Below are positions 2,640 to 16,534 of a stretch of 64,000 nt of DNA, piece by piece. This stretch comes from Vineibacter terrae (lineage in GTDB: Bacteria; Pseudomonadota; Alphaproteobacteria; Reyranellales; Reyranellaceae). Location of the stretch: assembly GCF_008039615.1 (NCBI RefSeq), contig NZ_VDUZ01000002.1:186001-250000 (forward strand). The letters run 5' to 3'. How positions within the stretch are numbered: the first letter of the stretch is position 1; each line of letters starts with the position of its first letter. A program made the position numbers and the translations under genes. The notes beneath the pieces were generated by a model. That model worked only from the letters and a program-made list of their open reading frames with translations, did no database searches and was not told the origin of the DNA.

Positions 2640-3608
2640 TCACGCCGCGAAGCCGGTGAACGGACTCTCCTGCCACACCAGCGGCATGACAGCAGCGCAA
2701 CGGCGCGCTTCCCTCCCCTCGGCGGCCATCACGGGCTCGAGCACGGCGCGCAGCCGGACATCGGCGTCGGCAGCCAGCGGCGTCAACGGCAGGCGCAGCT
2801 CGTCGGCGATCAGTCCGAGATGATGCAGCGCGCGCTTCACCGGGATCGGGTTGCTCTCCAGGAACAGCGCCGCATGCAGCGGCGCCAGGATCTGCGTGAC
2901 GCTGCGCAAGGTGACCAGATCGGCGATGTCCCATGCATGATGAAGGGCCGCGCACAGCGCCGGCGCCACATTGGCCGTCACCGAGATGCAGCCATGGCCG
3001 CCGGCCAGGCGGAAATCGGCCTGGGTCGCGTCATCGCCCGACAGCAGCGTGAAGTCGTCGCCGATCAGGCGCAGCAGCCGACCGGGCCGCCGCAAGTCGG
3101 CGGTAGCGTCCTTCAGGCCGATCACGCGCGGCAGCTCGGCGAGGCGCCGCACGGTCTCGTCGCTCAGGGCGCAGGCGGTGCGGGCCGGCACGTCGTAGAG
3201 CACGATCGGCAGGCCGACCGCGTCGTGAATGGCACGGACATGTCGGATCACGCCTTCCTGGGTCGGCCGCAGATAATAGGGCGTGACGCACAGCAGCCCC
3301 GATGCGCCGGCATGCTCGGCCTGCCGCGCCAGGGCGACGGACGTGGCCGTGCTGCAGGTCCCGGCGCCGGCGATCACCGGCACCCGGCCGGCAGCCGTGG
3401 CGACGGCGATCTCGATCAGGCGGCGATGCTCGTCCGCCGTCAGCAGCGGCGCCTCGCCGGTCGTGCCGCAGGGCACGAGGGCTGATGTGCCGCGGTCGAT
3501 CTGGCGGGCGCACAGCGCGGCGAAGGCGTCGGCGTCGACCCGGTCGTCGCGCAACGGCGTCACCAGCGCGACAATCGAGCCGCGCAGCCGCAGGCGTGAG
3601 GCGTTCAT
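2640..3608 (-). CDS. dapA: 4-hydroxy-tetrahydrodipicolinate synthase family aldolase (DapA-like)
   Basis: A 322-residue class I aldolase of the DHDPS/N-acetylneuraminate lyase family. It has the GTTGE substrate loop, TPYY, YDVPART with the catalytic Tyr and the Arg expected for true DapA, and GLKDAT with the Schiff-base Lys. These residues favour condensation of pyruvate with aspartate semialdehyde in lysine/diaminopimelate synthesis. The protein is about 30 residues longer than the E. coli enzyme, mainly at the C-terminus. The ATG is preceded by AGGAG at good spacing. It lies 35 bp downstream of the unknown gene at 3644-4114 and upstream of kdpD, away from typical dapA neighbours. It may be a paralogue of the housekeeping enzyme. 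Confidence 0.82.
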   Translation of the reverse strand: MNASRLRLRGSIVALVTPLRDDRVDADAFAALCARQIDRGTSALVPCGTTGEAPLLTADEHRRLIEIAVATAAGRVPVIAGAGTCSTATSVALARQAEHAGASGLLCVTPYYLRPTQEGVIRHVRAIHDAVGLPIVLYDVPARTACALSDETVRRLAELPRVIGLKDATADLRRPGRLLRLIGDDFTLLSGDDATQADFRLAGGHGCISVTANVAPALCAALHHAWDIADLVTLRSVTQILAPLHAALFLESNPIPVKRALHHLGLIADELRLPLTPLAADADVRLRAVLEPVMAAEGREARRCAAVMPLVWQESPFTGFAA

Positions 3609-3643
3609 GATGGGCTCCTGTGACAATGGCGCCGAGGAGAAGC

Positions 3644-4114
3644 TTACGCGGCGCGGGCCATGGTGGGCGCGCGCGTGGCCACCAGGATGAGGTGGAGGCT
3701 GCTGTCGCCGATCGAGGCGACGCTGAGGCCGAAGGCGGTGATCAGGCGCTGCACGGCAGCCAGCCCACCGGCCTGCGCCAGCGACGTCACGTCCAGGACG
3801 ACACGGCCTTGCGGGCCGATGCGGTGGCAAGCGGCCTCCATCGCAGCGTGGAGCTCGGCGTCGGTGCGCGGATCGGCGATCCAGGCCAGGTCGGCCGGCT
3901 CGCTATCCGGCGCACGCGTGCCCAGCTGCAGGCCGGCGACGGCGGCGCAGCCCCGATGCATCAGGGTCAGCACCAGCGGCAAGGTGCGGTGGCCGATCAC
4001 CACGGCGTGGGTTTCCGGCCGCGGCGGCGCCGCTGCGATCATATCCTCGCCGAGCGCCGCCTCGCGCTCGGCCGTCGTACACGGTCCGCATTCAGTCTCA
4101 GTCGAACGTGGCAC
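3644..4114 (-). CDS. Unknown protein, short Rossmann-like (possibly truncated methyltransferase-like)
   Basis: This 156-residue soluble protein starts at a GTG with an excellent AGGAGG site seven bases upstream. An alternative ATG start would be codon 25. After a low-complexity N-terminus the pattern (AVVIGHRTLPLVLTL, then ADLAWIADP and GRVVLDVTSL) alternates beta-strand-like hydrophobic runs and helices, as in a small Rossmann or SAM-methyltransferase-like fold. I see no complete SAM motif. It probably forms a transcription unit with the dapA-like gene 35 bp downstream. A 17-bp motif shared with the kdp promoter region lies 80 bp upstream of its start, so potassium-linked regulation is a reasonable inference. 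Function unknown. Confidence 0.7.
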   Translation of the reverse strand: MPRSTETECGPCTTAEREAALGEDMIAAAPPRPETHAVVIGHRTLPLVLTLMHRGCAAVAGLQLGTRAPDSEPADLAWIADPRTDAELHAAMEAACHRIGPQGRVVLDVTSLAQAGGLAAVQRLITAFGLSVASIGDSSLHLILVATRAPTMARAA

Positions 4115-5329: not shown

Positions 5330-6730
5330 CTACGACGCCCCGTCGTCACGCGCCCGTTCGATCATCTTGCCGGCGACGGCGCGGCCCATCGCATTGCCAG
5401 CGACGACGTCGCTGCGATAGTGGATACCAGCGGCGATGCGGGATTGACCACCTTCATCAGCCAGCGCTGAAAGTGCTGCTGCGTCGCGAGGGAAGAGGTG
5501 GCCGAGAATAACCGCGGCAGCCGTCCAGATGGTTGCGCCGGCCGAGGGATAGCTGGGATGGTTCGGCGTGTTGAACAGCGGCTTGATCTCGGGATCAAGC
5601 TGCATGGGGCGGATGTCCCAGTAAATGTATTTGGCTTCCCAGCAGGCGATCTGCACATCGTAATAGACGACACTCCAGATCGCGTAGGCGCGCGCCGCGC
5701 GCGGAGAGTTGCCGTTGAGCCCGTATTCGAAGTGCAAGCGACCGAGGTGATTGCTCCAATACTGGTGACCACGCGGACCGCCGACCGCCGCCTCCCAGAA
5801 CAGGGCCTCGCTGTTGGTCTTCGGGGTGCGTTTGAAGTTCCGAAGCTCGGCGAGCTCGGCCCCCCGTTCGGATGAATCATGCGGCAATGGTGGCCCGGGT
5901 CGGAACTCGCCCGGCGAAGACAGTATCCAAGTCTTCCAAGTGCCGAACGCCGGGCCCAGCGGGTTGGTGCCGAACCACTTGTCGGCGCCGGACGGCACCG
6001 TGCCGGTCCATTTGGCGTCCGATCCGTCGGCCTTGCCGCGTTCGATGACCAGGGCGGCAACCCGGCGCCCGAGATCGAATCCAGCAGCGACATCGCTCGG
6101 GTAGTTGACGCCGCCAAGCATGCGTGAGCGGCCTGCTTCCTCGGCCTTCTGGGCGAACATCTGCGCGCGATCCGGAAAGACATACGACAGCACCGCAGCG
6201 GCGGCGCCGGCCGCAGCCGCGTGCCCGGACGGATAGGAAGGACTCGGCGGATTGGGCAGCACGGTCGACAGGGTCGCGTCGACTTCGCTGGGCCGCTTGC
6301 GGCCGTGGGCGTACTTGCTTGCCCACGTGGCGACCATCGCGTCGTAGATCGCGACATGCACCAGGGCCAGCAGCCGCGCGGCGGGCGCTCCGCCCATGTT
6401 GGCCCGCAACGTCTCGGCGAGCGCGATTTCGTGCCAGCGATAGGACGGCGCACCCGTGTCCCACCAGGCGATCAGATCCTTGGCGGCGGCATCGCGTTTG
6501 CCCGTCAGCTCCTTAAGCTGTGTGATCTCGCGGCCGGTGGCAGCTGCGTCCGGCGATGCCAGCGGGCTGAGCTCGGCGCCAGAGCGAACGACCCAGGTCT
6601 TCCAGCTCCCTGCCCGGGGCTCGACCGGTTCGCTCTTCCCGGCGGCACGCGACGCCGCCGTCGGCAAGGCTAGCGCCAGCGTCGACGTCGTGGCAACGCC
6701 AAGAGCCGACCTTCTGCCCAGGCTTTCCAT
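5330..6730 (-). CDS. Internally duplicated PAP2 / vanadium-haloperoxidase-like protein, Tat-type signal
   Basis: A 466-residue exported protein. The N-terminus has GRRSALG followed by a hydrophobic stretch and an Ala-rich cleavage region, consistent with a Tat signal. The mature part is two homologous halves of about 228 residues, each starting SWKTW or TWKTW and each carrying the PAP2/haloperoxidase signature (K..RP, PSYPS, SR..G). Half one has PSGH with His170, but Asn209 replaces the vanadate/phosphate-binding His. Half two has His437 (AGIHYRSD), but Gly398 stands where the PSGH His should be. Each half is therefore incomplete in the opposite way. The ATG has GGAGGGG five bases upstream. 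Acid phosphatase or haloperoxidase activity is uncertain. Confidence 0.85.
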   Translation of the reverse strand: MESLGRRSALGVATTSTLALALPTAASRAAGKSEPVEPRAGSWKTWVVRSGAELSPLASPDAAATGREITQLKELTGKRDAAAKDLIAWWDTGAPSYRWHEIALAETLRANMGGAPAARLLALVHVAIYDAMVATWASKYAHGRKRPSEVDATLSTVLPNPPSPSYPSGHAAAAGAAAAVLSYVFPDRAQMFAQKAEEAGRSRMLGGVNYPSDVAAGFDLGRRVAALVIERGKADGSDAKWTGTVPSGADKWFGTNPLGPAFGTWKTWILSSPGEFRPGPPLPHDSSERGAELAELRNFKRTPKTNSEALFWEAAVGGPRGHQYWSNHLGRLHFEYGLNGNSPRAARAYAIWSVVYYDVQIACWEAKYIYWDIRPMQLDPEIKPLFNTPNHPSYPSAGATIWTAAAVILGHLFPRDAAALSALADEGGQSRIAAGIHYRSDVVAGNAMGRAVAGKMIERARDDGAS

Positions 6731-6976
6731 GGTTGTCCCCTCCACCCGGGAGCGCCCCGGACAAGCGGGAATGTAATGCTGCGCGCACAGCCTGCTGTCC
6801 GCCGATTGCTGGCACTATCCACTCTTCGCAAAAATCGTGCGCCGCCGGCGTTCCATGGCTCGCCCTCGATTGCAGATTCAGCCGACCGATGGTCGGTCTG
6901 TCTCAAGAACCCGGGCTTCGACGTCGACTTGGTCGTAACGGCCGATATTGCGCGATTCTACCAGGTCTGGCTTGGA

Positions 6977-12934: not shown

Positions 12935-13006
12935 AATCAGGCGTCGCGCCCGTGCAGCTCGGGACCTCAGGACTGGCGCTTGCCCCGCTTGCGCGCAGAC
13001 TGCACC

Positions 13007-16000
13007 ATGCGCGATCGATGGGTGACCGACATCCAGTCGGCGGAACTTCCTGGCACGGTCATGGTCCAGTTCCACCTGATGCCCAGTGACGCGACGGCCG
13101 TGGCCGAGCGGCGGATCGCGCATGTGGCGGCGACCGGGGCGACAGAGCTCAATCTTGTGGATCTCGGTCTCTCTCGCCTGCCGGATTCCCTGGCGCGGCT
13201 GACACATCTTCAGAGGCTCGACCTGTCGCGAAACCGGCTGACGGCGCTCTCGGATGTCCTTGCCAATCTTACGCAGCTTCGCGCGCTGGATGTGACAGCG
13301 AACCAGCTCACGGTGCTGCCCGACGCCCTGGGCGCACTGCGAGGGCTCCAGAGCCTCATGCTTTGGAACAACCAGTTGACGGCACTGCCGGAGACGATGA
13401 CCGACCTCGTGCAGCTCCAGCACGTGAGCCTCAGGAACAACCACCTCACGGCCTTGCCGGACGGCATCGCCAATCTCGTCCGGCTGCAGTGGCTGGATGT
13501 CTCGTTCAACAAGCTGACAGCGCTGCCTGAGGATCTCGGCAAGCTCGCATCGCTGCAGCATCTCATGGTCGGCGGCAACGCGCTCGCGGCGCTGCCGGAC
13601 AGCCTGGCCGGGCTCACGCAGCTGCGGCTACTTGGTGCCGAGCTGAACCAGCTGACCACGCTGCCCGCTGGTCTGACCGAGCTGGGGCAGCTCAACACCC
13701 TCGACCTGGCCGACAATCGCCTGACCGCCTTCCCGGACAAGCTTTCCAGGCTTGCACGGCTGGAACACCTCAGGGTCTCGCGCAATCAGCTGGCCAACCT
13801 GCCAGACGGCACGGCAGACCTTGTCCAGCTGCGCTACCTCGCCGTCGAAGGCAACCGGCTGACAGCGCTGCCCGGCCGCCTGGCCAACCTGGTCCGGCTC
13901 GGGGTGCTCGTCGCCGCGGACAACCAGCTGAGCAGGTTGCCGGAAGGGCTGGGCAGGCTTGCCAGCCTCACCAAGCTGGACCTGGCGGGCAACCGGCTGA
14001 CGGCGCTGGCGACCGAGCTGTCCCCGCTCGTCCGGCTGAGATACCTCGACATCGCCCGCAACCTGTTCACCGTGCTGCCGGACGACCTGGGAAGCCTGAC
14101 CGCGCTGGAGACGCTCAATCTCTCCGAGAATGCGCTGACGCGGCTGCCGGACGGCGTCGGAAACCTCGCGCAACTGGAATACCTGAACGTCGCGGGGAAC
14201 AGGCTGACAGCGCTCCCGGAGTCGATGACCAATCTCTCGCGGGTCGCGATGTTCTTTCTGCACGGCAACCCCGACCTCGCCCTGCCGACCGAGATTCTCG
14301 GACCGACGTGGCAGGATGTCGAGAAGGGCCGCCGCCCCGAGTCCGCAGCCAGCATCCTCGATTACTATTTCCGCACCGTTCGCGGCGCGCAGGCGCTGAA
14401 CGAGGCCAAGCTCATCCTCGTCGGCCGCGGCGGCGTCGGCAAGACGAGCCTTCGCCGCCGCCTGGTGGCCGGTCAGTTCGATGCCGACGAGAGGGAAACA
14501 CCGGGCATCGAGATCCAGCAGTGGGTTGTCAACGTGCCGAGCGGCGCCGATGTGCGGCTGCATATCTGGGATTTCGGCGGGCAGGAGATCCTCCATGCCA
14601 CGCACCAGTTCTTCCTGACCGAGCGAACCCTGTACCTGCTGGTGCTGGCGGGCCGCGAAGGCGGCGCCATGCCGGATGCCGAATACTGGCTCCAGCTGAT
14701 TCGCAGCTTCGGCGGCGACTCGCGCGTGCTGATCGTCCTCAACAAGTCGAGCGCCCATCGCTTCGACCTCGATCGCGGCCTGCTGCTGACGAAGTATCCC
14801 TTCATCGTCGGCGTGATCGCCACTGATTGCGCGGATGGAACCGGCATCGCGGACCTGAAGGAGCAGATCCTGAGGTACACCGACGAGCTGGATCATCGCC
14901 GCACGAAGTTCCCGGCCGAGTGGTTCGCCATCAAGGAGCGGCTGGCGACGATGAAGGACAACTTCATCGCCTGGGAAGCCTACCAGGACGTCTGCCGCGA
15001 GCTGGGCGAGACCGATCCCGCGGCGCAGCGCGAGCTGGCGGGCTTCCTGCACGTGCTGGGGATCGCGCTCAACTACCGCGACGATCCACGCCTCAAGGAC
15101 ACGCACGTGCTCAACCCGCATTGGGTGACGGACGGGATTTATTCGGTCCTTCGCGCCAGCCAGCGCACGAACGTCGGCGGGATCCTCACAAAGGCAGACC
15201 TCGGGCAGGCGCTCGATGCCCGGCGCTACCCGGCCGACACACACGATTTCCTGCTGCGCCTCATGGAAAAATTCGAGCTCTGCTTCCGTCTGGGCGGTCG
15301 CGCCGAGCGGTACCTCGTGCCCGAGCTGCTGAGCGAGGCAGGCGTCGGCGTCGATCCGACGCCACCGGATCTGGGGTTCCGCTATGAATACGAATACGCG
15401 CTGCCGGAAGGCCTGCTGCCGCGGTTCATCGTGCAGACCCACGCGATGAGCGAGAAGACGCCGCGCTGGCGCACCGGGGTCGTGCTGGAGCGCGACCGGT
15501 GTCGTGCCGTGGTCCGCGCCGACCGCGACAAGCGCACCGTCGGGATCTCGGTCCATGGACCACCAAACCTGCGGCGAAGCCTTCTCGCCATCATCCGCGA
15601 GAAGTTCGATGCGATTCACAGCGACTTCAGCGGCCTGCCGGTTCAGCAACGCGTGCCATTGCCGGATGAACCCGACCTGACCGTCAGCTACGAGCACCTG
15701 CTCATACTCGAAGATGAGGCCGAAGAATGGGTTCGGCCCGAGCGATCGAAGAAGCGGTATCGCGTTGCCGATCTGCTCAACGGCGTCGAATCGGCCGCCG
15801 ATCGGCAACAGCGCCGCTGGGAGAACCTGGCCGCCGGCCACGATCCCAACGCCTATGTCCCGCGGCGCAGGAATGCGCTGGCTGCCGAGCAGAACGACAC
15901 GCGAGGTGGTGAAATGCCCGCAAAATGCAGGCTGCTCTTCCTGGCCGCCAACCCGAGCGGAACCTCGCAATTGGCCCTGGATCGCGAGAGCCGCGAGATG

Positions 16001-16534
16001 GACCAGAAGATCCGGGCTTCGGATCACCGCGACTCGCTGGATCTCATCACGAAGTGGGCGATCCGTCCGGATGACCTGCTGCAGTATCTGAATCAATTCC
16101 GGCCGCACATCGTTCATTTCAGCGGCCACGGCGACGCAACGGAGGAAATCATTCTTCACGACAGCCGCGAGCTGGCGAAGCCGGTTTCGAAGGCGGCCTT
16201 GAAGCAGCTCCTGCGGACCATGAAGGACAACATCCGCGTCGTCGTGCTCAACGCATGCTTCTCGCGGCCTCAGGCCGAAGCCATCACGGAAGTGGTGGAC
16301 TGCGCCATCGGGATGAAGCGGGCGATCGGCGACAATGCCGCTATAACATTCTCCGCATCCTTCTACCGCGCCATCGGCTTCGGACGCTCCGTTCAAGAAG
16401 CCTTCGACCAGGGTATCGCGGCCCTGATGCTCGAGGATATCCCCGAGGACACAACGCCCGAGCTCCTGGTCAAGGACGGCGTCGACGCCAATGCCATCTA
16501 TCTTGTCGGCACCGGCCCGCGCGCGCCCACGTAG
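13007..16534 (+). CDS. LRR-Roc-COR-CHAT protein (bacterial ROCO GTPase with caspase-like effector domain)
   Basis: A protein of about 1,175 residues. Residues about 40-440 form 16 leucine-rich repeats, nearly all exactly 23 residues long (pattern L..L..LdLs.N.LtaLPd.l). A Roc GTPase domain follows with P-loop GRGGVGKT (473-480), DFGGQE switch II (522-527) and NKSS (579-582) in place of the usual NKxD. A COR domain occupies about 620-800. After a linker, the last ~200 residues are a CHAT (caspase-like) domain with His1041 in HFSGHG and Cys1084 in LNACFS as the catalytic pair. It is probably a cytoplasmic ligand-sensing switch that activates a peptidase. The start is uncertain: TTG 12980, ATG 13007 and ATG 13079 are all possible, none with a clear ribosome-binding site. 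It stands alone between kdp and aroA. Confidence 0.9.
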   Translation: MRDRWVTDIQSAELPGTVMVQFHLMPSDATAVAERRIAHVAATGATELNLVDLGLSRLPDSLARLTHLQRLDLSRNRLTALSDVLANLTQLRALDVTANQLTVLPDALGALRGLQSLMLWNNQLTALPETMTDLVQLQHVSLRNNHLTALPDGIANLVRLQWLDVSFNKLTALPEDLGKLASLQHLMVGGNALAALPDSLAGLTQLRLLGAELNQLTTLPAGLTELGQLNTLDLADNRLTAFPDKLSRLARLEHLRVSRNQLANLPDGTADLVQLRYLAVEGNRLTALPGRLANLVRLGVLVAADNQLSRLPEGLGRLASLTKLDLAGNRLTALATELSPLVRLRYLDIARNLFTVLPDDLGSLTALETLNLSENALTRLPDGVGNLAQLEYLNVAGNRLTALPESMTNLSRVAMFFLHGNPDLALPTEILGPTWQDVEKGRRPESAASILDYYFRTVRGAQALNEAKLILVGRGGVGKTSLRRRLVAGQFDADERETPGIEIQQWVVNVPSGADVRLHIWDFGGQEILHATHQFFLTERTLYLLVLAGREGGAMPDAEYWLQLIRSFGGDSRVLIVLNKSSAHRFDLDRGLLLTKYPFIVGVIATDCADGTGIADLKEQILRYTDELDHRRTKFPAEWFAIKERLATMKDNFIAWEAYQDVCRELGETDPAAQRELAGFLHVLGIALNYRDDPRLKDTHVLNPHWVTDGIYSVLRASQRTNVGGILTKADLGQALDARRYPADTHDFLLRLMEKFELCFRLGGRAERYLVPELLSEAGVGVDPTPPDLGFRYEYEYALPEGLLPRFIVQTHAMSEKTPRWRTGVVLERDRCRAVVRADRDKRTVGISVHGPPNLRRSLLAIIREKFDAIHSDFSGLPVQQRVPLPDEPDLTVSYEHLLILEDEAEEWVRPERSKKRYRVADLLNGVESAADRQQRRWENLAAGHDPNAYVPRRRNALAAEQNDTRGGEMPAKCRLLFLAANPSGTSQLALDRESREMDQKIRASDHRDSLDLITKWAIRPDDLLQYLNQFRPHIVHFSGHGDATEEIILHDSRELAKPVSKAALKQLLRTMKDNIRVVVLNACFSRPQAEAITEVVDCAIGMKRAIGDNAAITFSASFYRAIGFGRSVQEAFDQGIAALMLEDIPEDTTPELLVKDGVDANAIYLVGTGPRAPT
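15903..15916 (+). promoter_or_regulatory. Internal ribosome-binding site and ATG at the CHAT domain boundary
   Basis: GAGG (15903-15906), seven bases, then an in-frame ATG at 15914 (codon 970), exactly where the CHAT domain begins (PAKCRLLFLAANP). It would allow a free 206-residue effector. Ideal spacing, but chance is possible. Confidence 0.35.

Follow-up and report, generated by a model that had tools for sequence, protein, structure and literature searches.

A tandem PAP2/haloperoxidase-like gene

The minus strand of the window (the whole stretch of 64,000 nucleotides of Vineibacter terrae DNA that was analysed) carries at 5330..6745 a coding sequence for a tandem PAP2/haloperoxidase-like protein. 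With a GTG start at 6745, the product is 471 aa long, the stop codon being included in the coordinates; an alternative ATG at 6730 would give 466 aa, and the residues are numbered here from this second start. The frame of 5330-6745 is open, with a third-position GC of 0.78. By eye, residues 1-31 (6638..6730, minus strand) form an N-terminal signal-like stretch, in which residues 1-30 mostly have a pLDDT below 50 and the sequence RRSALG is, also by eye, what we take to be a twin-arginine-like motif. Given that signal-like N-termini are seen by eye both here and in several relatives, the protein is probably exported.

The neighbours of the gene encode a Gcw_chp protein, KdpA, and a SpoIIAA-like protein, and no functional link with these neighbours was seen. 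The flanks of four relatives were surveyed as mechanical ORFs, and there was no obvious shared partner in the three plasmid neighbourhoods. Elsewhere in the window (12980-16534, plus strand), an ORF of 1184 aa combines leucine-rich repeats and a Roc GTPase domain with COR-A, COR-B, and, at its C-terminal end, a caspase-like CHAT domain. It can be described as a bacterial Roco protein with a protease-like domain attached.

Two homologous halves with different residues lost

The Pfam PAP2 model (PF01569) matches the protein in two stretches (E 8.8e-26; 90.6 bits versus the curated cut-off of 27.2). When the two halves are compared directly, the Smith-Waterman score is 307, while the maximum among 1000 shuffles is 62, and in profile-profile comparison 200 columns align at 32% identity, with an E of 4.2e-59. 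That the two halves are homologous is beyond doubt. This homology and the two PAP2 stretches bear out the preliminary description, made from the sequence alone, of a duplicated PAP2/haloperoxidase protein with particular residues in each half. The NCBIfam PhoC model scores only 52.1 bits, below its cut-off of 430, and the protein falls outside the class A acid phosphatases (PhoN/PhoC), having two bundles rather than one.

Half one (residues 35-236; 6023..6628, minus strand, as are all motifs below) is assigned as a PAP2-fold bundle without the nucleophile His on the basis of Pfam, the half-half alignment, the model, and structure matches. Half two (residues 257-464; 5339..5962) is assigned as a haloperoxidase-type C-terminal bundle on the same grounds together with sequence comparison. 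The family alignment places a K-x6-RP motif in both, with Lys139, Arg146, and Pro147 in half one (Lys139 to Pro147, 6290..6316) and Lys367, Arg374, and Pro375 in half two (Lys367 to Pro375, 5606..5632). The remaining motifs, located by family alignment and codons, differ between the halves. Half one has Ser168-Gly169-His170 (6221..6229; CAC for His170, within YPSGH), but in its segment from Arg203 to Asp213 (6092..6124) Asn209 (AAC) stands where the nucleophile His is expected. Half two has lost the SGH-type His, having Ser396-Ala397-Gly398 (5537..5545; GGC for Gly398, within YPSAG), but its segment from Arg431 to Asp441 (5408..5440) contains the nucleophile/vanadate-ligand-type His437 (CAC, within GIHY). 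In the half-half alignment, His170 corresponds to Gly398 and Asn209 to His437; the spacing is 39 residues in each half and the offset between halves is 228, so the four residues and their spacing are as first described.

Members of the PAP2 superfamily are expected to carry the PSGH and S-R-x5-H motifs within one bundle (see also PMC4859513). Neither half has this combination, half one having PSGH but Asn209 and half two having His437 but PSAG. The full vanadate-contacting set of the haloperoxidases is also incomplete, with Gly398 at the position of the counterpart of chloroperoxidase His404. The residue that had been called the anion-binding His corresponds to the vanadate-ligating residue of haloperoxidases (PMC10278073) and to the phosphohistidine nucleophile of PAP2 phosphatases (PMC12264158).

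Predicted structure and comparison with known proteins

An AlphaFold2 model, built from an alignment of 46 rows that leaves out the three plasmid rows, has a mean pLDDT of 92.4 and a pTM of 0.91. Both of its halves superimpose on two-bundle haloperoxidases, with a Z of 34.6 for 4usz (2.7 A over 346 residues) and further whole-chain matches to 3w35 (Z 27.0) and 1vnc (Z 24.1). Thus, on the predicted model, the protein has a two-bundle fold with site motifs in the C-terminal bundle. A whole single-bundle acid phosphatase can be matched to either half, namely 9qcj to half one with a Z of 17.7 and 7f17 to half two with a Z of 17.9. Chains of algal bromoperoxidases also match one half each, half one in the case of 1qi9 (Z 18.7) and half two in that of 1qhb (Z 18.5). 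These matches fit the statement in a review that fungal chloroperoxidase has two helix bundles in its core, whereas in the algal dimer one bundle comes from each monomer (PMC9144378).

The vanadium iodoperoxidase of Zobellia galactanivorans (4cit/4usz) has the same two-bundle fold over both halves, and its K..RP, SGH, and R..H motifs all align to half two; however, it has SGH where the window protein has SAG. Furthermore, it matches the family profile strongly in its C-terminal part only, its N-terminal bundle being not recognisably PAP2 by profile search. The chloroperoxidase of Curvularia inaequalis (1vnc) likewise has two bundles. Its active site, given in PMC10278073 as Lys353, Arg360, Ser402, His404, Arg490, and His496, corresponds to half two, with His404 equivalent to Gly398, and its N-terminal bundle matches half one with 5.8 bits only. 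NapH3 (8cxl), which has the same fold (Z 25.7) with 15% identity in the aligned part, is a haloperoxidase homologue that catalyses a rearrangement (PDB title) and provides a precedent for non-halogenating relatives (PMC12871659). In contrast, the acid phosphatases 7f17, 9qcj, and 1d2t have one bundle with a complete site of its own, whereas the window protein has two bundles, neither with both His residues.

The complementarity of His170 and His437 in the window sequence had suggested that they might form one working site, either within the chain or across a homodimer. The structural comparisons argue against this, since either half by itself corresponds to a complete single-bundle phosphatase, and solved two-bundle relatives carry the site motifs in the C-terminal bundle. 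According to PMC4859513, the conserved C-terminal bundle likewise has the vanadate site at its end, and an origin by duplication and fusion is proposed there.

Distribution of the tandem family

A search for relatives gave 114 ORF matches, which were reduced to 85 rows after the removal of duplicates and short or weak matches; the addition of three plasmid rows brought the total to 88. The full-length tandem family comprises 49 of these, the window row included, and the other 39 are wider haloperoxidase relatives and truncated rows. Among the rows outside the 49 are L011 (frame-broken, with SGT in half two), L012, L099, L103, and the second L034 ORF; L116 was a later addition and also stands outside the 49. 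Further tandem-type matches from the search of the Spirosoma order were listed without a locus and stand outside the counts. In the other 39 of the 88 rows, His occupies the half-two donor column in 37 and the nucleophile column in all 39.

Full-length tandem relatives were found in Alphaproteobacteria, where they lie on chromosomes and on plasmids of rhizobia, as well as in Deinococcota, Thermomicrobiota, Bacteroidota, and Actinomycetota and in further genomes from the surroundings of these groups. The family is sparse in most groups sampled. At an E of 1e-60, the gene occurs in at least 3 of the 75 genomes sampled from the window's own family, at least 2 of the 198 from the class of L008, at least 3 of the 251 from the phylum of L007, and at least 5 of the 149 from the class of L011; a sample of 398 genomes from the window's phylum yielded at least one, this being the window's own genome. 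All genome counts are lower bounds, since the first pass scored only part of the candidates in each genome. In contrast to the other groups, the order of the Spirosoma relative has it in at least 46 of 194 genomes (E 1e-60). The window gene is the sole tandem-family member found in its own genome, which has nine PAP2 matches, two of them inside the window gene, with seven exceeding the Pfam cut-off. Some genomes contain more than one member. At L034 (G139, contig 57), tandem-family ORFs at 1489-2877 and 2928-3797 adjoin on one strand, the second matching the C-terminal part of the profile only. In Spirosoma (G061, contig 9), the divergent members L022 and L025 are no more than about 5 kb apart, and a closer relative, L006, is on the same contig but far away. 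L008 and L009, from Acidimicrobiia, have by eye a lipoprotein-like signal, with a cysteine after the hydrophobic stretch, and in half two both lack a few residues after GIHW.

Conservation of the two sites

Across the 49 full-length rows, half two keeps Lys367 and Arg374 in 49/49, Arg431 in 48/49, and the nucleophile His437 in 49/49; Ser396 is present in 43 rows and replaced by Ala in 6, and position 398 is His in 44/49. In half one, Lys139 is kept in 48 rows, Arg146 in 18, Ser168 in 37, and Arg203 in 44. His is found at position 170 in 23 rows and is absent in 26, and position 209 is never His (0/49) and is Asn in 26/49. As judged from these residues, the catalytic-type site that has been kept is that of half two, and half one is without a nucleophile in all sampled rows of the family.

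The first description named homologues with an intact site in one half as evidence against it. Such homologues were found, and the reciprocal pattern is not conserved: half two keeps both His residues in 44/49 rows, and in the same-genus L002 and same-family L116 half two reads PAAH, with Tyr in half one. Three plasmid-borne relatives, each a full-length tandem protein annotated as 'Phosphatase PAP2 family protein' (42 to 47% identity), also vary: the proteins of Phyllobacterium and Rhizobium retain a donor His in half two, within SNH, while that of Microvirga has SNA in half two and Asp in half one. Thus, on the evidence of the alignment, the apparently reciprocal breakage combines two losses of different scope: the whole family has lost the nucleophile of half one, and the lineage of the window protein has in addition lost the donor of half two.

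The donor His of half two is missing from five rows, where its place is taken by Gly in the window protein, by Ser in L008 and L009, by Thr in L018, and by Ala in L105. When donor loss is placed on the tree of the 49 rows, it requires four changes, of which well-supported branches force at least three; consequently, this His has been replaced repeatedly. The half-one His is kept in four of the five donor-less rows, as a composite site would lead one to expect, but it is also kept in 19 of the 44 others, and coupling of the two is not significant among the 49 rows (Fisher p 0.17, uncorrected for relatedness). In addition, L105 has no SGH-type His in either half. A composite site between the halves is therefore unsupported, half two having both of its own His residues in nearly all rows, and we consider it highly improbable. 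As a leading idea it was rejected on family conservation, given the missing nucleophile His of half one throughout the family and the absence of its SGH-type His from more than half of the rows.

The donor loss, as far as the alignment indicates, belongs to the lineage of the window protein and is no family-wide design. Gly398 is absent from every sampled close orthologue, and the small number of genomes in the family with the gene suggests that it is patchy and perhaps dispensable. These findings could mean that the gene is losing its function in this genome, with Gly398 as an early step. However, the open frame, the third-position GC, and the intact state of all other half-two motif residues make such decay unlikely. 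Furthermore, Gly398 is unlikely to be a single sequencing error because a change from the commonest His codon, CAC, to Gly needs two base changes.

A model for the window protein

From the homology of the halves, the residue counts, and the predicted fold, we infer a model for the function of the protein, which we favour by a modest degree. In this model, the protein would be a single-chain pseudo-dimer, probably exported, in which half one is a nucleophile-dead supporting bundle and half two is an oxyanion site without its proton donor. Half one, being non-catalytic, would pack against half two and shape the mouth of its pocket. It might also hold an anion, as a substrate-trap-like site consisting of Lys139, Arg146, Ser168, His170, Arg203, and Asn209. 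Half two, with Lys367, Arg374, Ser396, Arg431, and His437 kept and its proton donor changed to Gly398, would still bind phosphate or vanadate, and His437 would still be able to attack, but steps that depend on the donor would be slowed or lost.

An analogy is provided by G6PC1, although this is a distant membrane enzyme of the PAP2 family. According to PMC12264158, changing its nucleophile to Asn abolishes activity, and the mutant has been used to hold substrate, while changing its donor to Asn lowers efficiency. By comparison with these mutants, half one may be likened to a substrate trap on account of its natural Asn209, and half two, on account of Gly398, to a donor mutant.

It has also to be considered that both halves are catalytically dead and that the protein merely binds a phosphoester, phosphate, or vanadate. 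This would agree with the lack of a nucleophile in half one and of a His donor in half two and with the intact basic cradle residues in both. However, the retention of His437 and the whole Lys/Arg/Ser/Arg set exceeds what a pure binding role would call for, and the donor change in G6PC1 lowers efficiency without the complete loss reported for the nucleophile change (PMC12264158). A protein that only binds is thus possible, though we regard it as doubtful.

Two observations do not sit easily with the model of a supporting half one and a donor-less half two. First, the retention of His170, Lys139, Arg146, and Arg203 exceeds the needs of a purely structural remnant. Second, the recurrence of donor loss on the tree could reflect an altered function rather than mere weakening. 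Indeed, the repeated replacement of the donor (by Gly, Ser, Thr, or Ala) in scattered members of the family, with the nucleophile, the Lys, and the first Arg never lost, might define a functional subclass of the haloperoxidase fold that carries out covalent/oxyanion chemistry without a His donor and in which the dead half one serves as a second trap-like anion site, but we consider this distinctly unlikely.

Significance of the family

No tandem PAP2 protein with a dead half was found in the openly licensed PubMed Central literature. Taken alone, the window protein is a modest oddity in which one donor residue has been lost; the most useful point is the family to which it belongs, two-bundle haloperoxidase-like proteins whose N-terminal bundle is still recognisably PAP2. 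In the solved haloperoxidases, this bundle is described as variable and is weakly matched by sequence, whereas in the tandem family it has recognisable PAP2 motifs. The family thus gives sequence-level support to the published proposal that a single-bundle phosphatase was duplicated and fused to give rise to the two-bundle haloperoxidases, and its members offer test cases for the role of the dead half.
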